Below, piece by piece: positions 856 through 34,699 of a stretch of DNA of 38,957 bases (positions are counted from its first letter, which is position 1; each line of letters begins with the position of its first letter). The notes under the pieces were generated by a model that had not been told where the DNA came from, ran no database searches, and saw only the letters and a list, made by a program, of their open reading frames with translations. The position numbers and the translations under genes are program-made. Source of the stretch: a virus; IMG/VR virus record IMGVR_UViG_3300046804_002185, positions 1-38,957 of that record; one strand, given 5' to 3'.

Positions 856-2550
856 ATGGAAAACGTTAAAGAACTGTTGACCAATGCATTGAACCCTCAA
901 GCACGCTTGATGGCCGAAACCCGTGGACTCGTGTCCAAGTGGGAAAAGACCGGCTTGCTCGAAGGTCTCAAGAATGACATTGAGAAGTCAAACATGTCCG
1001 TTTTGCTTGAAAACCAAGCAAAGCAACTCATTGAAGAATCATCTGTCACTGGCACTCAGTCCAACTCTGAGCAGTGGGCAGGTGTCGCACTTCCTCTCGT
1101 TCGTCGTGTATTCGCCGAAATCGCAGCTAAGGAATTCGTCTCCGTTCAACCAATGAACCTGCCTTCGGGTCTGGTGTTCTACTTGGACTTCAAGTATGGC
1201 ACGACCACTGGTGCGTTCACGGCTGATTCGAGCACCAACTATTCATCGCTCTTCGGTGGAACTGGTGCAAAGTCTGGTTCAACTGACCAACCAACGGGCG
1301 GTCTCTATGGCCCGGGCCGTTATGCCTACACTGTCAACGACCAAATTGCATGGAGCCAGTCCACTGGTTCTGCTGCAACTGTCGCAGACATCAACTTCGA
1401 TACTGGTAACAGTAACGATTCAGTTAACCAAACGTTGTCAGCATCGCTGGCCGCTGGTCAACTCTATACCTTGACCACCAATAACTTGACTTCGGTTGTG
1501 TTGTCAGCCTCGGGTTCATACCCAGACCTCAACGCAGTCCGTTCGTTCTCGCCATCTGGCTCGGGTATCGTTACCTACTTCCCCGGCTTCACCCGCTTTA
1601 GCGGTGCAGAAGTTGTGTTCGTTGTCTCTGGTTCGGCAATTTTGACTGGTTCGGCATCGCCCGCAATCAAGGTCAACTTGAGCTTGCAACCAAAGGATAC
1701 TTCCCGTGGTGACTTTGAAGACCGTCTCGGTGCTTCGACCACTGCTACGGATACTGGTCTTAACAAAGACATTGGTATTCCAGAAGTTAACCTCGAACTC
1801 CGCAGCGAGCCTATCGTTGCTAAGACCCGTAAGTTGAAGGCTGTCTGGACTCCAGAATTGGCTCAAGACTTGAACGCCTACCACTCGGTTGACGCAGAAG
1901 CAGAATTGACTGCACTGTTGTCAGAGTATGTTTCGATGGAAATCGATCTCGAAATCCTCGACATGCTTATCAACAACGCCCCAGCAATCAACAAAGAACG
2001 CTGGTCGGCTAAGTTGAACCGTGAAATCATCAAGACTGGTGCTTCCAGCTACCAGATTGTTGACCAAACGACCGCTGGTTCCGGTGGTTACTACACCAAG
2101 GCAACTTGGTATCAAACCCTCGGTAACAAGATTCAAAAGGTATCTAACAAGATTCACCAATTGACTCTCCGTGGTGGTGCAAACTTCATGGTCGTCGGTC
2201 CAGATGTGGCAACCATCCTCGAATCCATCCCCGGATTTGTGGTGAACACAGACGGTGACTCGGCCAAGTTCGCAATGGGCGTTTCTCGTGTTGGTAGCTT
2301 CGCAAGTCGCTTCCAAGTTTACAAGAACCCATACATGCAAGAGAACTTGATTCTCATGGGCTTCCGTGGAAATAACTTCCTCGAAACCGGCGCAGTGTAT
2401 TCCCCATACATTCCGCTCATCCAGACCCCTCTGGTGTATGACCCTGTGAACTTCACGCCTCGCCGTGGTGTCATGACTCGTTACGCCAAGAAGATTGTGC
2501 GTCCTGAGTTCTACGGTCTCATCTACGTGGCAGACACGAACCAAGTCTAA
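856..2550 (+). CDS. major capsid protein, gp23-like
   Basis: 564 aa. Forms the capsid shell hexamers. It carries gp23-family signatures: an N-terminal helical region (about 1-60), then VQPMNLPSGLVFYLDFKYG (about 97-116), and a central block with IPEVNLELRSEPIVAKTRKL and WTPELAQDLNAYHSVDAEAE. The end is typical of the family, with a TPRRGVMTRYAKK-like segment. An L-I-E tripeptide at residues 58-60 lies close to where T4 gp23 is cut (after E65), so I expect maturation cleavage there. Between about 120 and 290 there is a Ser/Thr/Gly-rich stretch, probably the surface insertion domain. The 45 nt before the ATG have no Shine-Dalgarno-like sequence and are A-rich, which is unusual for one of the most abundant phage proteins. 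A strong terminator follows the gene. Confidence 0.95.
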   Translation: MENVKELLTNALNPQARLMAETRGLVSKWEKTGLLEGLKNDIEKSNMSVLLENQAKQLIEESSVTGTQSNSEQWAGVALPLVRRVFAEIAAKEFVSVQPMNLPSGLVFYLDFKYGTTTGAFTADSSTNYSSLFGGTGAKSGSTDQPTGGLYGPGRYAYTVNDQIAWSQSTGSAATVADINFDTGNSNDSVNQTLSASLAAGQLYTLTTNNLTSVVLSASGSYPDLNAVRSFSPSGSGIVTYFPGFTRFSGAEVVFVVSGSAILTGSASPAIKVNLSLQPKDTSRGDFEDRLGASTTATDTGLNKDIGIPEVNLELRSEPIVAKTRKLKAVWTPELAQDLNAYHSVDAEAELTALLSEYVSMEIDLEILDMLINNAPAINKERWSAKLNREIIKTGASSYQIVDQTTAGSGGYYTKATWYQTLGNKIQKVSNKIHQLTLRGGANFMVVGPDVATILESIPGFVVNTDGDSAKFAMGVSRVGSFASRFQVYKNPYMQENLILMGFRGNNFLETGAVYSPYIPLIQTPLVYDPVNFTPRRGVMTRYAKKIVRPEFYGLIYVADTNQV

Positions 2551-2599: not shown

Positions 2600-2620
2600 G
2601 TACTGACGAAATGAATTTTG

Positions 2621-2629
2621 ATATTTATA
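2621..2629 (+). promoter_or_regulatory. ATATTTATA element (candidate phage promoter)
   Basis: Reads ATATTTATA, one copy of the element that recurs in the same orientation before transcription-unit starts across the window. It lies just after the capsid terminator and 3 nt before the ATG at 2633. That spacing is too short for a normal leader, unless the transcript is leaderless or starts downstream. Confidence 0.4.
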
Positions 2630-2632
2630 TTC

Positions 2633-3517
2633 ATGAAGGTAATTGCATACACTGCATTAGTCCTCTTAAGTGTATTTGCGTTAATTTGCAACTCTTCTAA
2701 ACCCATAGTGTTAGACTCTGATTGTAACCGTGATTCTATCCAAATTGCCCTCGATTCCAATTCATCTATCCGTCTTCCCAACAAAACAATCGAAGTTGAT
2801 GCCCCAATTATTCTGTCCCGCAGCAATCAGAAACTTATCGGTGGAACAAATACCGTGTTGGTTTTGAAGAGCAACGCCAACTGTCCTGTCATCATTATTG
2901 GTCTTCAAGAAAATGTTCCCATCCAAAAAGTTTCGATAGAGAACATTCGGATTGATGGCAACCGATTGCAGCAAACAAACGAAACGTGGAAACCCTCTGG
3001 CCTCGGTCATTTGATGTATAATAACGGCATCATCGTCCAGAACGCCCGTTCAGTTTCGATAAAGAACGTGACTGTTTACAACTGTCGGTCGGGCGGATTA
3101 GTCTCTACTTATCATGTTTCTCGTTTGACCGTTGATTCCAGCGAATTCTACAACAATCAATTTGATGGCATTGCTTGTTATCAGACTACAAAAAGCGTCT
3201 TCAAGAATTCAAAGACACATGATAACTTGGCCGCAGGAATTTCACTAGACCTAGATTTCAACAGGAACGACTTCAAGAACATGGATGTTTACAACAATGA
3301 TATTGGTATCTTCATGCGAAAGTCTAATGGTAACATGTTTGACCGAATTTACATGGCTGGTAATCGTTCTCATGACATTTTCATGTCATCCGTGGATGAC
3401 TTACCAAATACGGGCTGTTCACAGAATACTTTTGTTTTAACCAAGAACCGGACTATTTATGACCGAGACATGCAGTGTGTCTCAAACACCTATTTAACAA
3501 TTCCGCTTGACAGATGA
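2633..3517 (+). CDS. secreted parallel beta-helix repeat protein
   Basis: 294 aa. The ATG at 2633 is preferred over an upstream TTG because it gives a clean signal peptide: a basic start (MK), a hydrophobic core (about 4-18) and Cys19. The lipobox is poor, so a lipoprotein is uncertain. The body has short repeating Asn/Val/Ile-rich rungs such as VSIENIRIDGN, VSIKNVTVYNC, LTVDSSEFYNN and FKNMDVYNND, as in right-handed beta-helix proteins (pectate-lyase or tailspike-like folds). Beta-helix phage proteins often bind or cut polysaccharides, but no catalytic residues can be assigned here. A signal peptide on a gene in a late virion region is odd: virion fibres are not secreted. It may act in the host envelope or be a gene acquired from a host. 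Its stop overlaps the next start (ATGA). Confidence 0.7.
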   Translation: MKVIAYTALVLLSVFALICNSSKPIVLDSDCNRDSIQIALDSNSSIRLPNKTIEVDAPIILSRSNQKLIGGTNTVLVLKSNANCPVIIIGLQENVPIQKVSIENIRIDGNRLQQTNETWKPSGLGHLMYNNGIIVQNARSVSIKNVTVYNCRSGGLVSTYHVSRLTVDSSEFYNNQFDGIACYQTTKSVFKNSKTHDNLAAGISLDLDFNRNDFKNMDVYNNDIGIFMRKSNGNMFDRIYMAGNRSHDIFMSSVDDLPNTGCSQNTFVLTKNRTIYDRDMQCVSNTYLTIPLDR

Positions 3518-4180
3518 TAGCGGAAATAGTAAACTCTACGAGTATGATTATCGAAATCAGAGCATCAGAAGGCGGCGACGACGCCAAGTCATTGGTGTTG
3601 ACGCAGGTTGACATTTACACCCGCTTAGTCAAACGTTCGGGGTTACTTTGACCTCGAAATTGTTGACCTAAGACCGGGGTTGGCAGTTCTTCAAGTCGGT
3701 CAGGATGCCGCTCATATCTTCAAAAATGAATCGGGTGGCCATCGTTGGCAACACGCTCCCACAGGAAAAGTTCATACCAGCACCATCACGGTCGCTGTCA
3801 TGGACGAACCTTCCCCAATCGAACTCCAAATCAACCCAAACGATTTGGATATAATAACTACCCGTGCGGGTGGAAATGGGGGTCAGAACCGAAACAAGGT
3901 TGAGACTTGTATTGTTATTCGTCACATACCGACAAATACGGTTGTGCGTTGTGCATCTGAACGTTCACAATATCAAAACAAAGAAAGTGCGATGAAAGTT
4001 CTTAAAGCACGGTTATGGGATTTGAAAAAATCTCAAATGCATAAAGAACAATGTAACCAACGAAATCAACAGATTGGTTGCGGTGATAGACGAAGAACTA
4101 TTCAGGCACAGAACAATGTTGTGAAAGACCGAGATGGGCGTGTTTGGAGGTATCAAGACTATTTGAAGGGGAAGTGGTAA
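3514..4180 (+). CDS. class-I peptide chain release factor homologue, expressed by +1 frameshift at UGA
   Basis: Expected product 221 aa: frame 1 from the ATG at 3514 to CTT 3646-3648, then a +1 shift past the in-frame TGA (3649-3651), continuing in the frame that ends at 4180. Residues 11-24 (IIEIRASEGGDDAK) match the release-factor core start ('EIRAG.GGDEA'). Residues 74-98 contain GGHRWQHAPTGKVHTST, the codon-recognition region. Residues 117-130 carry the catalytic GGQ (GGNGGQNRNKVE; Q124), followed by ERSQYQNKESAMKVL. Neither reading frame alone encodes a complete core, but together they are collinear with RF1/RF2. The helical domain 1 (about 100 aa) of full-length factors is absent, so the size is closer to PrfH-like short factors. 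The recognition loop is about 4 residues shorter than in RF1/RF2. It may terminate translation, rescue ribosomes or alter stop-codon use. Confidence 0.87.
3639..3652 (+). promoter_or_regulatory. prfB-type programmed +1 frameshift site
   Basis: The sequence GGGG TTA CTT TGA C has the same parts and spacing as the bacterial RF2 recoding site (AGGGGG UAU CUU UGA C). It has a G-rich Shine-Dalgarno-like stretch three nucleotides before the slippery CTT, then TGA followed by C. The shift joins two frames that together encode a collinear release-factor core. In bacterial prfB the site lies near codon 25, before domain 1. Here it is after codon 45, inside the core domain. Confidence 0.88.
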
Positions 4181-4682
4181 TATGTTGATACCGAAGAATA
4201 ATTTGTTTTGCCCACACGACTAAATCTTCGGGGCGTTGTCCTGATGGATGAGATTTACACCAAAGTTCAAGATTATCGGGATGATTATCTGCTCGGCGAC
4301 CGTTTTTATGATGGACTTGTTCATCTTTTTCAAGCGGTCGTCCGAGTATTTTTTCCATGACCATTCGGTGCTCCAAGTATTGTTTACCATCAATCGTAAA
4401 CGCCTTATATCCTTTGTCGGTGATATAACCTTGTCCTTTTTCGTTGATAAGGATTTTGGTTGCATCACCGTGGCGTTTCCATCGTCCATAATGCTTATGG
4501 CACAGTGGATGGTCGGTCTTCAAATCCTTTGCCGCCAAACCTCCGCAAATGACGCAGGATTTGTCCAACGACGTTAAGGTAACATTTGGGTCGCCATGAC
4601 GCTTCCAACGCTTGTAATGCCTATCACAGTAGTTTTTACGACGTGTTTGGTTTGTGCATCCTTCGGCTAAACATTTTCTCAT
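4098..4682 (-). CDS. HNH homing-type endonuclease with duplicated zinc fingers
   Basis: 194 aa from the ATG at 4682, chosen over an upstream in-frame start because it lies just after the recurrent TATTTATT element. The N-terminus has two similar Cys/His modules, each ending HY(K/G)RWKRHGD, a DNA-binding zinc-finger pattern of phage HNH enzymes. The centre and C-terminus have HRMVMEKILGRPL, then VHHKNGRRADNHPDNLELW: the HNH catalytic core (HH, N, N). The last 28 codons overlap the 3' end of the release-factor gene on the opposite strand. It is a free-standing selfish endonuclease inserted between late genes; the target site is unknown. Confidence 0.88.
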   Translation of the reverse strand: MRKCLAEGCTNQTRRKNYCDRHYKRWKRHGDPNVTLTSLDKSCVICGGLAAKDLKTDHPLCHKHYGRWKRHGDATKILINEKGQGYITDKGYKAFTIDGKQYLEHRMVMEKILGRPLEKDEQVHHKNGRRADNHPDNLELWCKSHPSGQRPEDLVVWAKQIILRYQHITTSPSNSLDTSKHAHLGLSQHCSVPE

Positions 4683-4685
4683 GAT

Positions 4686-4693
4686 AATAAATA
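4686..4693 (-). promoter_or_regulatory. TATTTATT element upstream of HNH gene
   Basis: Read on the minus strand it is CTATTTATT, ending 3 nt before the HNH start codon. It forms a divergent pair with the element at 4793-4801. Confidence 0.35.
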
Positions 4694-4792
4694 GAAACAA
4701 AAAAGTAATGGTGGATTATTATATGTTATATTCTTATTTTGTCACACAATTGGAAATGGTAAATGGAAAGGCGTTTAATGTGAATAAGACGC

Positions 4793-4801
4793 ATATTTAT
4801 A
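4793..4801 (+). promoter_or_regulatory. ATATTTATA element
   Basis: ATATTTATA ends 7 nt before the ATG at 4809, in the short gap between two divergent genes. Same orientation relative to its gene as the other copies. Confidence 0.42.
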
Positions 4802-4808
4802 CTTAGCC

Positions 4809-5561
4809 ATGATTTCCTTTGCAAACATAATGCGGAAGATGTTGCTTGAGCGTATGTCATTCAGTGACCTTTACGCCAGTAGCACCCCTGACCGTGTTGA
4901 CCGTTCCAAGAATGTAAATGCCCGCTCCCTCCGTGTCACCAGCATGGGTGGACAGGAAGCATGGACATTCACATACAAATCCAACCCATCTACGACGGGA
5001 CATCGTTGGCATGGCTACGTTCGTTTCTTAAACGAAGATGTCATGCAGGCAACCAGTGCCGCCGAGTTGGATTGTATGGTGGACTGTGACTGCCCCGACT
5101 ATCGCTATCGGTTTGCTTACAACAATGCCAAAGCCGATGCTGGGGCAATTGGACCGGGGTCATGGAATCAGAACAATGGTCGTCCTCCCCGCCCTCGTGA
5201 ACAAGGTGGAGTTGGTGACTATGGCACGGGCATGTGCAAACATTTGATTGCTCTCGGCGAATTCTTGAAAACGAACATCGAACCCGATGCTCCTGAACCA
5301 GAAGAACCAAAAGCAACTCAGCCCCAACAGCAACCTAAGCCAGTTGCTCCCAAACCAAAAGTCAAACCACAACCCAAGCAAAAGCCGCAGCCAAAACCTG
5401 CGTCTCAACGTCCACAAACTGTCAATGCACCAGACCCCGACGATGACAGTTATTCAGACTCTCGTGGGGACATGTTGCAAGAGACGACTGGACACTTGGC
5501 GGAACGACTGAATAACTTGGTGAAATCCAAACCAGAATTTGACGTGTGGTATGAAGACTGA
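4809..5561 (+). CDS. SWIM-type zinc-binding protein of unknown function
   Basis: 250 aa. Residues about 93-97 (CDCPDY) and about 139-145 (GMCKHLIALG) give the CxC...CxH zinc ligand pattern of SWIM domains, which bind DNA or proteins. A Pro/Gln/Lys-rich linker of about 60 residues follows (160-215), then an acidic helical tail. The N-terminus is hydrophobic/basic and includes L-L-E at residues 12-14, an (L/I)-x-E tripeptide, so it could also be capsid-targeted; this is weaker than in the MIKL family. It overlaps the next gene by 11 bp, and the two probably form one unit. Confidence 0.6.
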   Translation: MISFANIMRKMLLERMSFSDLYASSTPDRVDRSKNVNARSLRVTSMGGQEAWTFTYKSNPSTTGHRWHGYVRFLNEDVMQATSAAELDCMVDCDCPDYRYRFAYNNAKADAGAIGPGSWNQNNGRPPRPREQGGVGDYGTGMCKHLIALGEFLKTNIEPDAPEPEEPKATQPQQQPKPVAPKPKVKPQPKQKPQPKPASQRPQTVNAPDPDDDSYSDSRGDMLQETTGHLAERLNNLVKSKPEFDVWYED

Positions 5562-6690
5562 TAAACTCAAAGAACTCATTCGACACATTGTCATGGAAAG
5601 CCTTGATGCTTTGCAAGAAGAGCATCAAAAAGGCGAGTGGTGGATTACCGACGATGGTGGAACAATTTTTGCCGATATTGATATTGGCGACTCAGGACAT
5701 GAAGGCGTTGTCATTCAGCATTTGACAAGCGAGATTCTTGGCCATTTCAACATTCATGACGTAGAAGGCGGAATGAACGACTATGAAGAGACCATTAAAG
5801 GTGTATTGGAGTCAGACGGTAGGTTTTCAGAAGAAGATAACGAAGAGTGGGAAAGCCGAGGCCCATCGGAAGTCATCCTCAAGAAAATCATTGAAGATAA
5901 ACTGTATCCTACCCCTGAGCAGGCCGAAGACGCTCTCTACATTGCTTACGGAAATACATCCCGAGACGCACGTAACTATGGAATGAGATACTTGAACTGG
6001 AAGATAATGAAGACTTACGGCAAGTATATTGAAATCCAGACGTGGCATCTGAAGCCAGACGATTTGTCGGCCATCGTTCGTGGATTGTGGGACATCATCG
6101 AAGATGACCCTGAGAACGAAGAAGACCCCGACAATCAAGTTGGAGAAGATGGTTTCCAAGGCCCACGCATCAATCTGACCGTAGCTGCTTCACAGAAACG
6201 CTTCCACGATATTCCTATGGCGGTGCTTGAGAAGAAGATGGCACAGAAGCTTCAAGCTTATCAGTCAGGCGTTCATGTTGGCTATACCGAAGCCATCAAC
6301 GAAGATTACCATTTCCATCACAAAGAGTATCGCCTATATGAAGGCAACCGTCACATTGTTGTCGCTTTTGATGACAACACCCGTCTCAAGTTTGAAGTTC
6401 ACTTCCGTAATGCACGGGGAGTTGACAAAGAGAAGTGGCGTCGTAAGGCTATGTCCACATGGAAATCATGTGCGAATGAGTTGCATCGGGACGTTCCATT
6501 GAGCGATGCTTTGAATCCTATTCAGAAGTCTTGGAAGGAATGCTTCAAGGAAGCCATGAAGAACCCTAAGATGAAGCCTTACATCCGAGTGCATCATCAC
6601 CACAAGATTTTCGATGACAAGGGCTATCCTGCCGCAGTTCAAGGCAAACCACAAGCCGTGGTTGACCCCGTGAATCTTACCCCTCGTTAA
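5551..6690 (+). CDS. hypothetical phage protein
   Basis: 379 aa from the ATG at 5551, which overlaps the preceding gene by 11 bp; an upstream TTG is less likely. I do not recognise a family. The start LKELIRHIVMESLDAL is a short amphipathic helix, followed by an acidic, Asp/Gly-rich segment with aspartate and isoleucine repeats (about 30-60). The C-terminal half is basic and His-rich (RVHHHHK near 352) and ends in VNLTPR. There is no signal peptide or membrane segment. Given its partner, it is probably a virion-associated or accessory protein. It converges with the leftward array that ends at 6709. Confidence 0.55.
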   Translation: MKTDKLKELIRHIVMESLDALQEEHQKGEWWITDDGGTIFADIDIGDSGHEGVVIQHLTSEILGHFNIHDVEGGMNDYEETIKGVLESDGRFSEEDNEEWESRGPSEVILKKIIEDKLYPTPEQAEDALYIAYGNTSRDARNYGMRYLNWKIMKTYGKYIEIQTWHLKPDDLSAIVRGLWDIIEDDPENEEDPDNQVGEDGFQGPRINLTVAASQKRFHDIPMAVLEKKMAQKLQAYQSGVHVGYTEAINEDYHFHHKEYRLYEGNRHIVVAFDDNTRLKFEVHFRNARGVDKEKWRRKAMSTWKSCANELHRDVPLSDALNPIQKSWKECFKEAMKNPKMKPYIRVHHHHKIFDDKGYPAAVQGKPQAVVDPVNLTPR

Positions 6691-12107: not shown

Positions 12108-13087
12108 AAATCCTCCCATGTAAATACGCTGAGTGCGTTGGAGTCACCCGTCAGATGTTTGACGATGCTCGTTGGTTCTCCGTATTCCTCTTCGTTTGCC
12201 ATGTTGTAAATTCCCGGTGATTCTTCGTCGGCATTCTCAAATGGTTTGGTTACAACATGCATGAACGATTTATCGGTTGGAGGAATGGAGAAATCAATGA
12301 TGGTATAGACGTGTCCATTGAAGCTGTAATAGTCAAAATGCTCTCCGGCCTTACCATATTCAGACCCATATGAAAAACACCATAGAGAATTACATCCCAA
12401 TGCTTTCATTCCGGGCTGACCAGTCACGTCGATAATGACAATGTTTCCCTTGTCATAGACGATTTTCAAATCGTAATTATTTGCCTTGACAATTTGTCTC
12501 AAATCATACTTGGATAACTTGAACGTTCCGGCTATCAGGTTTTCCTTTTCTTCAACATAATCCAGAACATCCTCGAAGGTTGGGTGGTCGCTGCTGAAAA
12601 TCTTTTTCAGAAGGATAACCTTTTGTTCATCTGACCTATTTTCCAAGTAACTCAAATGTGCATTGATATACTCTACTCGGTCAAGTAAATGCGAAAACGA
12701 AGCACGAGGTTTGCGAATATCTCCACGGAGATTACGCAGCGAAAACTTAGGCCATTTACTGACGGCTTTGATGACCTTGGCTCGGTCACTCAGGGTTCGT
12801 TGATGAACCGATGGGATTGGCGAATCGAAGGAGAATCCTTCAATTGGGAAGAGATTCTTATTGTAATTCAGGAGTTGTGAATAAGCATCTTGCCATTGCT
12901 GCAAAGTCCATCGAACATGTGATTGCTTGTCTTCAAGCATCAATTCAACCAATGTCTTGTAGGTGTGGTCTTTCTTACCACCAGTCACCCTATCCAGCCA
13001 TTCAATATCAGCAGCTTCCAGCTTGTCGCCATAAAGTTTGGTAGCAAGTTGGACATTTTCTGATAGTAAATGACGGAGTTTAATCAT
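12104..13087 (-). CDS. capsid-targeted cargo protein, unknown function
   Basis: 327 aa. Leader MIKLRHLLSE (L-S-E 8-10). The middle is helical and charged. Around residues 225-240 there is GMKALGCNSLWCFSYGSEYG, a G-x-x-x-x-WC pattern reminiscent of phage proteins with a 'G..TKWC' signature, followed by a segment YYSFNGHVYTIIDFS; no catalytic family can be named. There are no membrane segments. It is first of the four overlapping cargo genes, translated from a start that overlaps the stop of the CCA/HD gene. Confidence 0.62.
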   Translation of the reverse strand: MIKLRHLLSENVQLATKLYGDKLEAADIEWLDRVTGGKKDHTYKTLVELMLEDKQSHVRWTLQQWQDAYSQLLNYNKNLFPIEGFSFDSPIPSVHQRTLSDRAKVIKAVSKWPKFSLRNLRGDIRKPRASFSHLLDRVEYINAHLSYLENRSDEQKVILLKKIFSSDHPTFEDVLDYVEEKENLIAGTFKLSKYDLRQIVKANNYDLKIVYDKGNIVIIDVTGQPGMKALGCNSLWCFSYGSEYGKAGEHFDYYSFNGHVYTIIDFSIPPTDKSFMHVVTKPFENADEESPGIYNMANEEEYGEPTSIVKHLTGDSNALSVFTWEDL

Positions 13088-15636
13088 TGGTTACGCATAG
13101 CCAATGCAATTTCTGTTGCTTCGGCCTTCGAGATATTTGGGTTCTCATACCACGCATCCGTAACGGCAGACAGAATCTTGCCGATGAGCGGGCCTTTTGG
13201 AATGCCCATCATTTGCAAGTCGTTTCCGTTGATAGGAAGCGTTGGCTTTGATACTTGAATGTCGAGGTTCTTGAGACGACGACGCACATGTTCAATCTGG
13301 TTTGGCATGGCGGATGCATCCGCATGAGCGATGTTGTCGGCGTGAATCACGTCGAGCAAATTCTCCAAGTTATTCCCAAGTTCAATCTTGAACTTGCGAA
13401 GCGACTTGTCGGACAACTTGACCGCATCATCCCCACCATGCTTCAAACGCATGTGGTTAGCCACACCCGCCTTGACAGCGTTGATGATGTCCGTAGGATA
13501 CTTCAAATCACGAAGCACACGGTCAACAATGTCAGCACCAGCCTGTTCATGTCCATAGAAATGCACACCCGTTGGTGTTTCGGAACGAGTTGCAACCTTG
13601 CCAATGTCATGGAACAACGCCATCAGGCGTTGCACCAACTCAGGCTTCGTGTTTGTGAGCACTTCAAGCGTGTGGTCGAATACATCGTGTGTATGGTGAA
13701 CATTTTGAGCCATACCGATGGCTTGTTGCAATTCGGCAGCAATGTGTGGCAACAGCCCAACGTCTTTCAGCAAACGAATGCCTCGGACGGGGTTCTTGGA
13801 CAAAAGAATCTTGTTCAACTCGTCACGGACACGTTCTTTTGACGTGTTACCGAGACGGTGAAGGTTGTTCTTGATGCCTTCAATGACTTCGGGAGCAATC
13901 TGGAAATTGAATTGCGTTGCGAAGCGAACTGCACGGAACATGCGGAGGGCGTCGTCCGTGTAAATCACGTTGGGGTCAATGGGCGTGCGAACCAGCCCAG
14001 CCTTCAAATCGGCCATTCCCTTTCCCGTAGGGTCGAGAATCTTACCAGATGACACATCTTTATACAAAGCATTGAATGTCAAGTCACGACGACTTGCATC
14101 CACTTCAATGTAAGGCGTGTATTGAACGACTGGCTTGCGGCTGTTTGGGTCGTGGTATTGCTCTTTACGGAACATGACTGCATCCACATTTTGAGCGGAG
14201 AAATCAATACCGTTCCAAACCACACCTTCCAAACGAAGATTGGCTGTGCCGAACGTCGGGTAAATGACGGGGTTGGTCTTTTCCTTAAAGATGCCAAGCT
14301 TCTTGCCGAGCCATTCGGTGAATTCGACGCCGCCTTGGAACTTTCCAACAACAATGTCAGCATCCTTGGGTGGTTTGCCCAAGAGTTCGTCACGGACAAA
14401 GCCGCCTACGAGGAAGACTTTACCTTCCCATTCAGTGCCTTTGATTTGTTCCCGAAGAAATGCTTCGAGGTCTTTTGGTGTTGCGGCTTTTGATTCCATA
14501 ATCTGTAACTTATTTTCGTCCACTCCATACCCGCCCTTTGTCGGATACATGTTAGACTTTGGCTCTGGCTTTTCTTTTGTCCAATCCAAATTCTTGTGAT
14601 GTTTGACTTCATATCCCATTCTTTCGAGATAGTTAGTCACATCTACTCTTGACTCGTCATCGGGTGGAAAATTCCACCAGAACACAGCTTTGACATCGGC
14701 GTTGTAAACCCAGCGATTCCAACCCATGTCTGGCGAATGACCACCGACATTTTTCTTTGCTACAATCCTACCAGTGCTCCAAATGCCACCATAAACGATG
14801 TCAGATTTTTCTGGTTTTTCTTGCTTTGGATTGAAAGAGAAAATCTCAGTCAATGGCTTGCGAACAAAATCACCCCGAGAGTTTACATGTCTCAAGACAG
14901 GGTATCCTTTCTTTTTCAAGAAATCTTCGACGGCAACATAGTTGTCCGTGTCAGTTGATGGCACCCACCAACTTACCGATTGCGAATATGGCCAGTATGA
15001 GAATCGGTTGTGACTGTTACCAAATCCGAACTCATCATGCATCCGCTCTCCGTCTTGAGGAAGTGGAAGATGAACTTTCCCATACGCATCCACCATTCCT
15101 ACCCATCTTTCTGTCGGGCTAAACCCTTCATTTAATCCAACTCGGCGCAATTGCGATTGCCAAGACAAATCCGTGCCCTTGGCAGGCTCATCCAATTTAG
15201 CGAGCCATATTCTACTCCATTCCTTCGATTTGTCAACGTCAAACCCTGTATAGTCATCCTTGACCCACAACCACTTATGATGCCAGATGCTATCTGAGTG
15301 TCCTTCTCGGGGCGGGGCTGTCCCATCTAATGATACGACCACGTAATCTCCGACATGTGGTTCGGATGCGGTATCGAAATCGGGAGCTTCATCAAAGCGA
15401 ACGATTTTCCGCTTTGCATCAACCATGATGGTGTTGTAGTTAAACTCGGGCTTGGCACGAGTCATTATGGCTTCGGCCTTTTGCAAAATCGCTGCGGGAA
15501 TGACTTCATCGGCATACAATTTATGCACGTAAACACTGCTGCCGACTTGTTTGCCGACATTTCCCCGATAACGACGAATAGCCGAACCTTGTTTGGTTCG
15601 GAGCGTCGTCTCATAGAATTGCGTGTATTGCGTCAT
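13084..15636 (-). CDS. CCA-adding/poly(A) polymerase-HD domain protein with phage N-terminal repeats
   Basis: 850 aa from the ATG at 15636 (4-bp overlap with the upstream stop); a longer frame to 15714 is less likely. Residues 385-620 are a class-II tRNA nucleotidyltransferase/poly(A) polymerase: VGGFVRDELLG with DAD (425-427), VDASRRDLTFNALY (512-525) and RMFRAVRFATQFNF (566-578). Residues 670-790 are an HD phosphohydrolase (ALFHDIGK; HD 676-677). The N-terminal 380 residues are unlike bacterial CCA enzymes. Residues 1-155 form a first domain, then two related modules (about 180-250 and 283-347) share a 'VSWW...VEDFLKKKGYPVLRH' / 'VFWW...VTNYLERMGYEVKHH' pattern. L-N-E at 168-170 and L-T-E at 262-264 fit prohead-protease sites. 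It could repair tRNA 3' ends damaged by host defences. Confidence 0.85.
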   Translation of the reverse strand: MTQYTQFYETTLRTKQGSAIRRYRGNVGKQVGSSVYVHKLYADEVIPAAILQKAEAIMTRAKPEFNYNTIMVDAKRKIVRFDEAPDFDTASEPHVGDYVVVSLDGTAPPREGHSDSIWHHKWLWVKDDYTGFDVDKSKEWSRIWLAKLDEPAKGTDLSWQSQLRRVGLNEGFSPTERWVGMVDAYGKVHLPLPQDGERMHDEFGFGNSHNRFSYWPYSQSVSWWVPSTDTDNYVAVEDFLKKKGYPVLRHVNSRGDFVRKPLTEIFSFNPKQEKPEKSDIVYGGIWSTGRIVAKKNVGGHSPDMGWNRWVYNADVKAVFWWNFPPDDESRVDVTNYLERMGYEVKHHKNLDWTKEKPEPKSNMYPTKGGYGVDENKLQIMESKAATPKDLEAFLREQIKGTEWEGKVFLVGGFVRDELLGKPPKDADIVVGKFQGGVEFTEWLGKKLGIFKEKTNPVIYPTFGTANLRLEGVVWNGIDFSAQNVDAVMFRKEQYHDPNSRKPVVQYTPYIEVDASRRDLTFNALYKDVSSGKILDPTGKGMADLKAGLVRTPIDPNVIYTDDALRMFRAVRFATQFNFQIAPEVIEGIKNNLHRLGNTSKERVRDELNKILLSKNPVRGIRLLKDVGLLPHIAAELQQAIGMAQNVHHTHDVFDHTLEVLTNTKPELVQRLMALFHDIGKVATRSETPTGVHFYGHEQAGADIVDRVLRDLKYPTDIINAVKAGVANHMRLKHGGDDAVKLSDKSLRKFKIELGNNLENLLDVIHADNIAHADASAMPNQIEHVRRRLKNLDIQVSKPTLPINGNDLQMMGIPKGPLIGKILSAVTDAWYENPNISKAEATEIALAMRNQ

Positions 15637-16982
15637 ACGTCTTGTGGATGTCTCACATTGATGATTGGAACATTGAACTCCTTGGAGAACCGTTCCAACA
15701 CATGCTTCACCCACGCCATTCCTGACATGGTGTAACTACCGGGGTTCAACCGACCCTTCTTTTCTTTCATGAACTCAAAAAACTTCCGTAACAATTCCTT
15801 GGAATATCCCTTATCACGAAACTCTGGCTTGGTTTGAATCATCAACAAATGGAAAACGTTAGATGTCTTGTCATGACCAAATGCGAGATAGCCATATGGC
15901 GTAACCCATTTGTAACCATGCGTGCTAATATCAATCAGCCCTTGAGGTTGAACCTCGTAGGACTCTTTTAGAGATTTCAAATACCTATTGGCAAAGACTT
16001 TATTGCGTCCAAGCTCAACCCGATTACCATTAACTTTGACCGTGCGTTTATATTCTTTTCCGGCTTCTTCCCAATTTTTGTTCAAGACTGCTCGCACAAA
16101 TTTCGGAAATCCAGTTAGAGTCCCCAAATTAAACGCATAGTCTGTGAGTATTTCTTCTTGGGTATCGTCTAACACAATTTGTACACCAAACATCTTCTTT
16201 ATGTCGTCGTGGGCCTTTTTCTTTGCCAATTGCAAATCCAACACCAACAACTTTTCAATTGTTCGGTCGTCCACACCTTTTATGAATTTTTTCAACTCGG
16301 ACTTGCTCTTAATCTTGTGTCCGTATCCTATAGTTGGCATACCGCCTTCGGGTGATTTGTGCGGATACCATTTTCCTTTCTTAAACCCAGACTTTCCCGA
16401 GTTTTCCACGGACTTGATGTAGTTGACAAAATCCTGAGAAAAAGAATTCGTCGAGTGATGTATGGCAGGTGGAGTATCCATTTCTGAAAGGGTGTTTTTT
16501 GCTTTTTTGGACTTTATCAAGTCTATCACCCTTTTTATCTTATGTCCATCATTTTTAATGAGTTCTTCCATTCCGAAATGCAATGGCTCTGGCCATTGAC
16601 CATATTCAACCCATACCGAACCTTCGTTTTCCCAATTGAGTTGTGGGGCGAATTCAAACGGAACGATAACCAAATAGTTATGATAGGAAAACTCTCCGTC
16701 TCGGTAAACGTAAAGTGGGTGGATTTTATAGCGACCAGTGAATCCTGTTTCTTCTTCAACTTCACGTTCGACGGCATCCTTGGGAGTTTCCCCAGCATCT
16801 ACCTTGCCGCCCCATGTTCCCCATGTTTCTGGTTCGTAGTCAACTTGGTTGCTTCGATGCGCCAGAAGAATGCGTCCAGTATCACGAGCAATAAAAATAC
16901 AACCAGCCGCTTCACTTCCCCAATACTCTCGGGTTCCTTGGTCTGCATCTAAGAAATCGTCTTGGTTTGGTTCAAATGGCAT
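15633..16982 (-). CDS. Nudix-lysozyme-GNAT three-domain fusion
   Basis: 449 aa. Residues 24-150 are a Nudix hydrolase with a perfect Nudix box, G59-x5-E65-x7-R73-E74-V75-E76-E77-E78-T79-G80-F81. Residues 180-335 are a T4-type lysozyme/muraminidase: SVENSG (E193, the general acid by alignment) and PEGGMPTIGYGHK, with T217 equivalent to T26, but S210 where T4 has D20. Residues 345-449 resemble a GNAT acetyltransferase, with EFRDKGYSKELL (R389-x-x-G392). The linkers carry L-S-E (165-167) and L-K-E (338-340), both (L/I)-x-E, so a polyprotein cut by prohead protease is possible. It leads the leftward array, preceded by a promoter-like element 37 nt upstream. Confidence 0.85.
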   Translation of the reverse strand: MPFEPNQDDFLDADQGTREYWGSEAAGCIFIARDTGRILLAHRSNQVDYEPETWGTWGGKVDAGETPKDAVEREVEEETGFTGRYKIHPLYVYRDGEFSYHNYLVIVPFEFAPQLNWENEGSVWVEYGQWPEPLHFGMEELIKNDGHKIKRVIDLIKSKKAKNTLSEMDTPPAIHHSTNSFSQDFVNYIKSVENSGKSGFKKGKWYPHKSPEGGMPTIGYGHKIKSKSELKKFIKGVDDRTIEKLLVLDLQLAKKKAHDDIKKMFGVQIVLDDTQEEILTDYAFNLGTLTGFPKFVRAVLNKNWEEAGKEYKRTVKVNGNRVELGRNKVFANRYLKSLKESYEVQPQGLIDISTHGYKWVTPYGYLAFGHDKTSNVFHLLMIQTKPEFRDKGYSKELLRKFFEFMKEKKGRLNPGSYTMSGMAWVKHVLERFSKEFNVPIINVRHPQDV

Positions 16983-31561: not shown

Positions 31562-34500
31562 ATGCCAATCACTGAAGGTGGAAGATTTACCCCCAATGAC
31601 CGCATCGTAAGCCCGGGTGTATTCACCCGTGAAAATGACCTATCTGGTATCGCTCAAGGCGTTGCCGACATCGGAGGCGTGGTATTAGCCCCGTTTGCAA
31701 AAGGTCCGGGTTTCTCACCAACACTTGTTCGCAGTGTTTCAGAACTTGAAAGCAAGTTCGGAACTGCTGACGGAACTCTCTATGGTCCATACACGGCCAA
31801 GCAATACATTCAAGAAAAAGGATTTGTCACGGTCTGTCGTGTCGGTGCTTTGACTGGTTATCACCAGAAGTATCCTTGGGTCATTTGGGCAGAAAAGGGA
31901 ACGTGGATTCGTCAACAAGACTCAGCATCAATTGTTGCTGGTTCTTCTACGTTGAGCCAAACTGGTTTGACTTGGGTAACTGCTGGTCAACAGACCAGTG
32001 CTTCCGTAAGTTCCTACACTGGTTCTGTGACTTTGGTCAGCCAATCCGTCACCCTTGGTCTCACGGGCAGCACTCTTTACAACAACACAACTGTTGTTGG
32101 CACGATTAGCGGTAAGTTCAGCTTCACTGGTTCATTGAACCTTTCGACTGCTTCTGCAACCTCGGCTTCTATCTTGGAAGCAATCTTCGATGCAGGATAT
32201 TTCACTGGCTCACTTGCTGGTGCAACTTTCTTGAGCAGCCAAACCCCATTCGATGCCGCATTCTTGACGAATGCATGGCACTTGACTGGTGTTAGCCAAT
32301 CCGTTGATTCTTGCAACAATCTCACCTTGAATGTTTCGGGTGATATTTCGGGAAGCATCGGTAACTACAACGGCAACTTCGTCAGTGGTTCTGGCACATT
32401 CGACCCTTGCACGGGAACGTGGACAATGGGTGGAACGGAATACAAGATTCTCGCCGTTCTTGCCGACACGCAAAACGCAACCATCAATTCTGATTTGGAA
32501 GCACCCGGCTTCTATGGTTCAACCCAATCCTATGCTCCTTCGCCTTCTGGAAGCGATTCTGTTGGTGTGGCATTCGACTTGGCTTTGAGCGCATCTGAAA
32601 ATGGTGGCTACGGCATTTACAACTTCTCACTTGACCCAAACAGCGTCAAGTATATCACCAACGTATTCGGTGCTGATGCACAAGCTGGCGACCCTGACAC
32701 GTATGTTGCAGGAACCAAGCGTGAAGCAGCATACCTTTACAAAGTGTTTGAAGACGACATTGCAACGGTCTCTGGAAATTCTTCGCAATGGAGAATCAAC
32801 GGAACGGCAATGCCATCAGGCTCATGGACTGGTGAACCTCTCAAGTTTGTTGACCAATGGTCATTGGACTTGCTGAATGGTGACTCGGCCTATGGTCTTA
32901 CCAACGCTTACACTCCTTGGGTTGTTTCCCAAAAGGTCTCTCCTTGGAATGGTGGAACTTCGACTCGTTTCCCATTGTTCCGTCTCTTGACGTTGAGCGA
33001 TGGCACGAACCAGAATACCTCGTTCAAGATTGAAATCTCCCAAGTCAAGTTGGCTGGCACGGTTGCTGGCAGCGATTGGGGAACTTTCACCCTCACGGTG
33101 CGTGATTACAGCGACACCGACAAGAAGCCAAAGATTTTGGAGCAGTTCAACAACTGTAACCTCGACCCTGACTCTCCAAACTTCGTGGCTCGCAAAATCG
33201 GCGACCGCTACAACTACATCCGCTTCGATGGTAAAATCATCGAATTTGGAACGTATGACAATCTCAGCAAGTATATTCGTGTTGAAATGTCATCGAATCC
33301 TTGGCCAACCACGGCTGTTCCTTACGGCTTCCAAGCCTACACGGTTCCAGTCAACGGCGCACTTGGTCAGCAATGCAATCCAATTGCATACACCAAGGCA
33401 TCGGTCTATGGATTGTTCCCCGGCAAGTATCCATCGGGTATTGACTTCGGTGGTGCTCCTGCGGGTGCAGATAGCCAACTCACCGCATTGTATCCAACCT
33501 CTTCGGCTGGTGTCGAACATTACAGAGACAATCTGCAATACTTCGCCCCTGTGCCAGATGGTGCTACGGTGGGTAACAACACACTCTTTGCTCTTGATGA
33601 AGAAATCACTGCAAATGGTATCGGAACTGGTTCTTACATCAGCGCAAGCAACGTAGTGCCAGCCATCTATGACGCAGCAAATGAAACCACCTACATCAAG
33701 ATGCGTAAGTTCGTCTTCGGATTCCAAGGTGGATTTGATGGTCAATCGCCAGCTATTCCGCTGAATCTCGGTGCAGACATCACTGCGGGCAACACCCAAG
33801 GTTTGAACTGCGCTAACAGCACGACAGCAGGTTCGATTGCATACAATCAATGTATTGGCGCACTCGGAAATGCAGACGAGTTCGACATCAACTTGATTGT
33901 AACTCCGGGTATCATCTACTCGTTGCACAGCTACGTCACCAACACGGTGGTTGAAATGTGCGAACGCCGTGGTGATTGCTTCTACATCGCCGACCTCTAC
34001 CAAGATGATGGCAACCCAACGTCGGGTCAAATTGATGAAGTCGTAAGTTTGGCTTCTGAGTTCGACACGTCCTACGCTGGAACTTACTATCCTTGGATTA
34101 AGATTAAGGATACAAACACGAACAAAATCGTGACTGTTCCTCCTTCGGTAGTGATGCCAGCAGTTTACGCAGCCAACGACCGTGTGGCTGGTGAATGGTG
34201 GGCAGTAGCAGGTTTGAACCGTGGTGGTATTCCAGTGGCAACACAAGTCACCGACCGCACGACCCACGTTGAGCGTGATACGCTCTATGAAGGCCGTGTC
34301 AACCCAATCGCAGCATTCCCCGGTCAGGGTATCTGTGTGTGGGGTCAGAAGACCTTGCAAGTCGAGTCATCGGCTCTTGACCGCATCAACGTCCGTCGTT
34401 TGTTGATTGAAATCAAGAAGTTCTTCGCTTCGACTGCACGCTACTTGGTGTTCGAGCAAAACACGGCTGCAACACGCAACAAGTTCTTGGCAATCGTCAA

Positions 34501-34699
34501 CCCTTACTTGGAGAGCGTGCAGCAACGCAGTGGTTTGTATGCCTTCCAAGTCGTAATGGATGACAGCAACAACACGCCTGACTTGGTTGACCGTAACATC
34601 CTGTATGGTCAAATCTACTTGAAGCCAACCAAGGCCGCTGAATTCATCGTCTTGGACTTCAACGTTCTGCCAACGGGCGCAACGTTCCCAACGGCCTAA
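31562..34699 (+). CDS. tail sheath protein, gp18-like
   Basis: 1045 aa, versus about 660 in T4. N-terminus SPGVFTRENDLSGI (about 17-30) and ADIGGVVLAPFAKGP are typical of sheath proteins; the C-terminal 110 residues (GQGICVWGQKTLQVESSALDRINVRRL...ARYLVFEQN) are the conserved sheath domain that polymerises and contracts. The extra length is mainly in residues about 115-330, a Ser/Thr/Gly-rich stretch, and in the middle. This suggests surface domains decorating the tail. A strong terminator follows. It has its own promoter-like element. Confidence 0.93.
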   Translation: MPITEGGRFTPNDRIVSPGVFTRENDLSGIAQGVADIGGVVLAPFAKGPGFSPTLVRSVSELESKFGTADGTLYGPYTAKQYIQEKGFVTVCRVGALTGYHQKYPWVIWAEKGTWIRQQDSASIVAGSSTLSQTGLTWVTAGQQTSASVSSYTGSVTLVSQSVTLGLTGSTLYNNTTVVGTISGKFSFTGSLNLSTASATSASILEAIFDAGYFTGSLAGATFLSSQTPFDAAFLTNAWHLTGVSQSVDSCNNLTLNVSGDISGSIGNYNGNFVSGSGTFDPCTGTWTMGGTEYKILAVLADTQNATINSDLEAPGFYGSTQSYAPSPSGSDSVGVAFDLALSASENGGYGIYNFSLDPNSVKYITNVFGADAQAGDPDTYVAGTKREAAYLYKVFEDDIATVSGNSSQWRINGTAMPSGSWTGEPLKFVDQWSLDLLNGDSAYGLTNAYTPWVVSQKVSPWNGGTSTRFPLFRLLTLSDGTNQNTSFKIEISQVKLAGTVAGSDWGTFTLTVRDYSDTDKKPKILEQFNNCNLDPDSPNFVARKIGDRYNYIRFDGKIIEFGTYDNLSKYIRVEMSSNPWPTTAVPYGFQAYTVPVNGALGQQCNPIAYTKASVYGLFPGKYPSGIDFGGAPAGADSQLTALYPTSSAGVEHYRDNLQYFAPVPDGATVGNNTLFALDEEITANGIGTGSYISASNVVPAIYDAANETTYIKMRKFVFGFQGGFDGQSPAIPLNLGADITAGNTQGLNCANSTTAGSIAYNQCIGALGNADEFDINLIVTPGIIYSLHSYVTNTVVEMCERRGDCFYIADLYQDDGNPTSGQIDEVVSLASEFDTSYAGTYYPWIKIKDTNTNKIVTVPPSVVMPAVYAANDRVAGEWWAVAGLNRGGIPVATQVTDRTTHVERDTLYEGRVNPIAAFPGQGICVWGQKTLQVESSALDRINVRRLLIEIKKFFASTARYLVFEQNTAATRNKFLAIVNPYLESVQQRSGLYAFQVVMDDSNNTPDLVDRNILYGQIYLKPTKAAEFIVLDFNVLPTGATFPTA

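Follow-up and report, generated by a model that had tools for sequence, protein, structure and literature searches.

The window, that is, the whole stretch of 38,957 bases of the virus record analysed here, came from a T4-like myovirus and carried a gene for a class-I release factor divided between two reading frames (Table 1). The ATG opening the zero-frame ORF overlaps the stop codon of the upstream gene (ATGA), while the ATG at position 3544 is the start that matches, and is conserved in, the family of homologues described below. A single +1 step at CTT-T joins both frames into a class-I release factor of 221 aa, which matched both PF03462 and PF00472, each half alone matching its own part only. 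The preliminary description of this DNA had proposed a phage release factor in two frames with the GGQ in the second, and this held. It had also likened the junction to the bacterial RF2 recoding site in its parts and their spacing, and the E. coli prfB site, which reads AGGGGG-TAT-CTT-TGA-C, did match the GGGG-TTA-CTT-TGA-C of the window, with a spacer of 3 nt in both. Moreover, this layout (a Shine-Dalgarno-like stretch, 3 nt, CTT and a stop, with the rest of the gene in the second frame) was found both in the window and in the family. However, the motif RGGK-N3-CTTTGA occurred once in the window when 0.38 occurrences would be expected by chance, so that the motif alone is weak evidence and proves nothing.

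Table 1. Features of the release-factor gene and its surroundings in the window (positions from the first base of the window).
Feature	Position	Strand	Remarks
gp23-type major capsid protein	856..2550	+	T4-like myovirus context
Right-handed beta-helix protein	2618..3517	+	Upstream gene; its stop overlaps ATG 3514
Zero-frame ORF	3514..3651	+	Start of release-factor domain 2 (MIIEIRASEGGDDAK...); ends at TGA 3649-3651
Shine-Dalgarno-like G-rich stretch GGGG	3639..3642	+	3 nt before CTT; family consensus CGGAGGGGT-CTT
Spacer TTA	3643-3645	+	Between GGGG and CTT
Shift site CTT-TGA-C	3646..3652	+	CTT 3646-3648, TGA 3649-3651, C 3652; putative mechanism, after prfB
51-nt run identical to L003	3646..3696	+	Starts at the shift site
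+1-frame ORF	3650..4180	+	Open from 3629; remainder of domain 2, GGQ domain 3, end of domain 4
Codon-recognition loop	3749..3781	+	QHAPTGKVHTS, 4 residues shorter than family QRVPPTEKRGRVHTS and RF1 QRVPATESQGRIHTS
GGQ peptidyl-tRNA hydrolysis motif	3878..3886	+	Read in the fused translation
Junction peptide of the fused protein			...KRSGLLDLEIVDLR...
HNH endonuclease gene	4098-4700	-	On the other strand; runs into the 3' end of the release-factor gene
876-aa protein	13084-15714	-	tRNA-nucleotidyltransferase-like half (phrog_2244) fused to another domain (phrog_16075)
Tail sheath	31562-34699		T4-like myovirus context

The protein encoded in the window is an RF1-type class-I release factor without domain 1. 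The fused translation scored 165.6 bits with the RF1 model against 120.6 bits with the RF2 model, a difference of 45 bits that set it apart from RF2 (prfB), and all 36 members of the family that were scanned also matched prfB, with a weaker best E-value and an outgroup position in the tree. The scores lay far below the RF1 equivalog cut-offs (164.7 of 423.25 bits and 165.6 of 400 bits for TIGR00019 and NF001859, respectively) because domain 1 is missing, the match starting at position 111 of the RF1 model. Furthermore, an assignment to ArfB disagreed with the presence of the PCRF domain and with a score of 32 of 100 bits, and the PrfH model (TIGR03072) reached 58 bits of the 166.65 of its cut-off. 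The GGQ of the window protein lies within the PF00472 domain and was present in all 93 members long enough to be scored, and the acid residue after GGx, which is E in RF1 and RF2, was D in 93 of 94 members. Since the protein is of the RF1 type and not of the RF2 type, the suggestion that the site had either moved or arisen again stands as a separate occurrence, but not as a simple move of the prfB site within the same gene. The site had also been placed in the core domain and away from the N-terminus; it does lie inside domain 2, which is owed solely to the loss of domain 1, but counted from the start codon it comes early in the ORF, at codon 35-45 (~37).

Regarding the codon-recognition loop, most members had the form QRVPPTEKRGRVHTS or its variant ending in -QTS, near the QRVPATESQGRIHTS of RF1, and PPT was kept in most relatives. 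The window itself did not present a PxT loop of RF1 length, as four residues were missing, and the same shortening was found in L003, L027, L019 and L072, the loop being also short in L083/L085. As the short-loop L019 groups with the long-loop L044, this shortening happened more than once, and since the loop reads the stop codon, either peptide release or the recognition of codons may differ in the window and these few relatives. Such a loop, lost in separate branches, would suit a rescue factor resembling PrfH, by which damage to the decoding centre would slow termination and call up a factor needing no correct stop reading; domain 1 is absent in PrfH too, and RtcB2-PrfH protects from colicin E3 (PMC9223846). 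We nevertheless regarded this reading as unlikely, given that most members had an RF1-type PPT loop together with the Q..HT/QT residues, that the PrfH score was far below its cut-off and that no RtcB was found among the neighbours scanned (the gene directly upstream in the window encoding the beta-helix protein). In addition, the structure predicted by AlphaFold for the relative L072 (pLDDT 88.6) had a TM score of 0.92 to ribosome-bound RF1 and of 0.69 to PrfH, so that the modelled fold of L072 resembles RF1 more closely than PrfH. The short loop in the branch of the window may still leave room for a rescue role at ribosomes unable to read stops.

A homologue search, begun with the fused protein and extended with alignments of related proteins, yielded 94 distinct scored homologues, found in nearly all cases on viral contigs (many of them of 100-735 kb), with seven from contigs of bacterial MAGs. 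The preliminary description had proposed looking for the site in related phages, and a total of 73 out of 94 homologues broke frame by +1 at a CTT-stop, with a Shine-Dalgarno-like stretch at least four bases long upstream in 65 of them; four more homologues outside this count also had the CTT-stop. These 73 sequences, mostly of uncultured phages, formed 56 clusters at 70% identity, with a median pairwise identity of 51%. Nearly all the breaks appeared at one codon position, 31 codons past the EIRA motif, the break being displaced downstream by at least 10 codons in L131 and L125. Eight homologues had the CTT-stop without a clear Shine-Dalgarno-like stretch, and that of the window was only GGGG. 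CTT was required for the shift class; the class kept for +1 breaks at any other codon contained no homologue apart from L056, a probably decayed locus with an internal deletion and no CTT-stop. Moreover, the leucine codon before the stop was CTT in 73 of 73 homologues, compared to 16% of the leucine codons elsewhere in the same genes, and the arginine codon at -9 to -7 was AGG in 41 of 44 (10.6% elsewhere), an excess which indicates that codon choice here serves the nucleotide motif.

Wherever an estimate of dS was possible, dN (0.01-0.28) was well below dS, which was much larger or saturated, on both sides of the break. Both parts of the gene are therefore under purifying selection, with the substitution rates of a working protein. 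A pseudogene or a sequencing error might be supposed from the two frames, from the gene of L059, broken by an insertion sequence, and from the decayed L056, but it was refuted by conservation, as the identical break recurred across 73 distinct sequences, drawn from numerous metagenomes and assemblies, with dN well below dS downstream of it, and virtually no likelihood is left to it. The two-frame release factor with a prfB-type shift site is thus confirmed as real, the proof being comparative and coming from conservation. Separately, in L059 the gene was split, at about 4307-6445, by an insert of ~2.1 kb with an IS1595/ISXO2-type transposase. Furthermore, outside the 51-nt run that the window shares with L003, the two genes were 66% identical, and the capsid proteins of both were 95% identical. 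A 3' RNA structure behind this run was rejected, as its fold was no better than that of shuffled sequences (z of 0.26 and 0.04), and the run may stem from either recombination or some further constraint.

The stop codon at the shift site was UGA in 59 of the 73 homologues, UAG in 13 and UAA in one. On the maximum-likelihood tree, with a bootstrap that was not fully settled, at least 11 changes of stop identity were counted, UAG and UAA being gained repeatedly within UGA clades, and the class of the gene (shift, in-frame stop or open) changed at least 10 times. In particular, 17 homologues without the shift had one or two in-frame UGA codons (L004, L005, L020-L023, L048, L052, L054, L057, L060, L072, L082, L114, L117, L123 and L130), amounting to 22 stops, all of them UGA and all followed by A or C, never by U or G. 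The in-frame TGA was located at the shift codon itself in three cases (L060, L072 and L082), as CTN-TGA-CTR, L072 reading CTC-TGA-CTG, while the related L020, L023, L048, L052, L054 and L057 had a common TGA ~13 codons downstream, where L125 has CTT-TAG and the shift. The TGA of L048 stands in ATC-TGA-ATT. Only four homologues were open, so the switch is not indispensable.

A recoded genetic code was rejected for LR756502, LR745206, LR756504 and LR756501, in which 79-91% of ~49 kb was covered by table-11 ORFs with TGA among their terminators, L004 and L005 being outside this verdict. Moreover, no suppressor tRNA with the anticodon UCA was found among 221 tRNAs (ARAGORN, main tRNA clusters of five phages). 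The relatives with in-frame UGA, in phages mostly using the standard code, are putative cases of programmed readthrough. Several of them sit in phages of 634-735 kb, which PMC7162821 places in the Mahaphage clade, predicting Bacteroidetes as their hosts. As described for F. johnsoniae, Bacteroidetes ribosomes make little use of Shine-Dalgarno pairing and perform the prfB shift poorly (PMC12421855), this weak use being a possible cause of the switch of route. As judged from the aligned genes, an internal stop is maintained, and its identity and apparent recoding route vary.

The preliminary description had tied the level of the phage factor to host RF2, the factor rising when termination at UGA by RF2 is slow. 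The UGA of the window, of 59 of the 73 shift members and of the 22 in-frame stops agrees with such a sensor, but UAG, the stop of the 13 members above, is read by RF1 alone. A survey of prfB genes with the motif in 8,164 genomes reported 98.6% UGA, 1.4% UAA and no UAG, as well as no programmed shift in prfA (PMC12421855), so that the prfB pattern of a UGA (rarely UAA) read by the encoded factor was not that of this family. In addition, the RF1-type loop of most members would not read UGA, and a simple autoregulation like that of prfB therefore misfits the UGA sites as well. The swaps of UGA for UAG and UAA speak against a gauge of host RF2 alone, which we hold to be rather improbable. Given the varied stops and the in-frame UGA branch, the link to host RF2 is at most part of the story, and slow termination of any kind explains the family better.

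Regarding the genomic context, the window resembles its three closest relatives in having the gene 3' of the gp23-type capsid gene, which fits the expression late in infection supposed in the preliminary description, the other collected loci differing in this respect. No partner gene was conserved across loci, the capsid neighbourhood being common to the nearest relatives only. In 17 out of 17 large phage records tested, this was the sole RF1-like gene, and the MAGs carrying a family gene had two full-length release factors elsewhere. No cultured phage with the gene was found in 50,697 records, its carriers being uncultured huge phages. One locus (L060) was located on JAFDWS010000002.1, a contig of 1.36 Mb from an Armatimonadetes MAG, with the phage-like region being on, or binned as, that contig. 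There, the gene with in-frame TGA adjoins a PTH2 peptidyl-tRNA hydrolase, which is suggestive, and a T4-like deoxynucleotide monophosphate kinase.

The gene probably encodes a backup terminator, of the RF1 type and without domain 1, made when termination is slow and subject to feedback control. Its product could be made only if a ribosome failed to stop ~37 codons in. In the window, the ribosome would pause at UGA with tRNA-Leu on CUU in the P site, the G-rich stretch would pair with the 16S rRNA and pull the mRNA by one base, tRNA-Leu would slip from CUU to UUU, and decoding would resume at GAC to give the full factor, while rapid termination would leave a useless peptide of ~45 aa. In the members with in-frame UGA, a near-cognate tRNA would pass the stop. 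With the stop inside the gene, the factor would be made in proportion to the failure of termination there, so that its level would mirror slow termination in infected cells, with the factor then supplying peptide release. Either the overall termination capacity would be sensed, or the phage factor would act at the stop of its own gene as a negative feedback. From the sequence, we infer that the +1 shift occurs in vivo and that the product, with its release machinery kept, releases peptides; by analogy, the shift would rise with slow termination.

The internal stop might instead be only a throttle that senses nothing and holds a toxic release factor low, and overproduction of release factors does lower fitness in B. 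subtilis (PMC12421855). However, a weak start or promoter would suffice for this, and the strong selection for a stop together with a strong shift motif, as well as the swaps of stop and route, point to a stop-dependent step, making the throttle a highly doubtful explanation. The backup terminator can also be read more broadly as a general termination sensor, a view whose chances we see as about even, in which the stop is kept while its identity, its position and the means of passing it (+1 shift or readthrough) vary, and in which the product perhaps acts at any stop or on damaged ribosomes. On this view, the family would hold the first RF1-type gene under programmed recoding and the first in-frame stop readthrough in a release-factor gene of the bacterial type.

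No RF1-type gene combining programmed recoding with exchangeable stops and two routes inside a single phage family came up in literature searches limited to an open-access library. The parts are known singly (frameshifting in prfB, and shift plus readthrough in Mimivirus), and it is their combination in an RF1-type phage gene that was not found and appears new. According to a 2016 review (PMC5009743), readthrough of an in-frame UGA in RF2 genes and the equivalent with UAG in RF1 genes were unknown outside a giant virus; reviews and a 2025 survey likewise report that neither an RF1 counterpart of prfB frameshifting nor readthrough of in-frame stops in bacterial release-factor genes is known (PMC5009743, PMC12421855). 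Here, both putative routes, with interchangeable stops, appeared in one widespread and almost wholly uncultured phage gene family, which is under-annotated because standard gene callers split or truncate the gene. Why large phages carry a release factor becomes a testable question, as does whether infected cells are short of termination capacity or have that capacity attacked by a host defence.

Frameshifting in prfB is the textbook example of a release factor that gauges its own activity. The phage gene shares with it the Shine-Dalgarno-like stretch, the 3-nt spacer, the CTT, the stop and the C, as well as a short zero-frame product with the rest in +1, but it is of the RF1 type, lacks domain 1, has the site inside domain 2 and, across the family, uses UGA, UAG or UAA. 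With RF1 (prfA) it has in common domains 2-4, the GGQ, a loop mostly of the PxT type, the best-scoring models and the fold, while it differs in the absence of domain 1, the scores below the equivalog cut-off, the apparent need for recoding and, in the window, the short loop. PrfH likewise lacks domain 1 and has an altered recognition region; in contrast, the phage factor is far below the PrfH cut-off and has no RtcB partner nearby, and we know of no recoding of an intact prfH. ArfA is alike in its logic, being a rescue factor made when another termination or rescue step fails (PMC10107115), but it is an unrelated protein whose mechanism relies on an mRNA without a stop. The nearest precedent is the release factor of Mimivirus and Megavirus (R726/mg280), also a virus-borne class-I factor whose gene needs recoding, by readthrough of one stop plus a +1 shift, the shift site being either CUU UAG C or CUU UAA C; in E. 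coli, the Mimivirus CUU UAG C site yielded the full-length factor through such a shift (PMC3521657). However, that factor belongs to the eRF1 family (eukaryotic/archaeal) in a virus of amoebae and has its two routes in one gene, whereas here the bacterial RF1 family is found in phages, with the two routes in different members; large viruses of two kinds of host would thus have reached the same solution.
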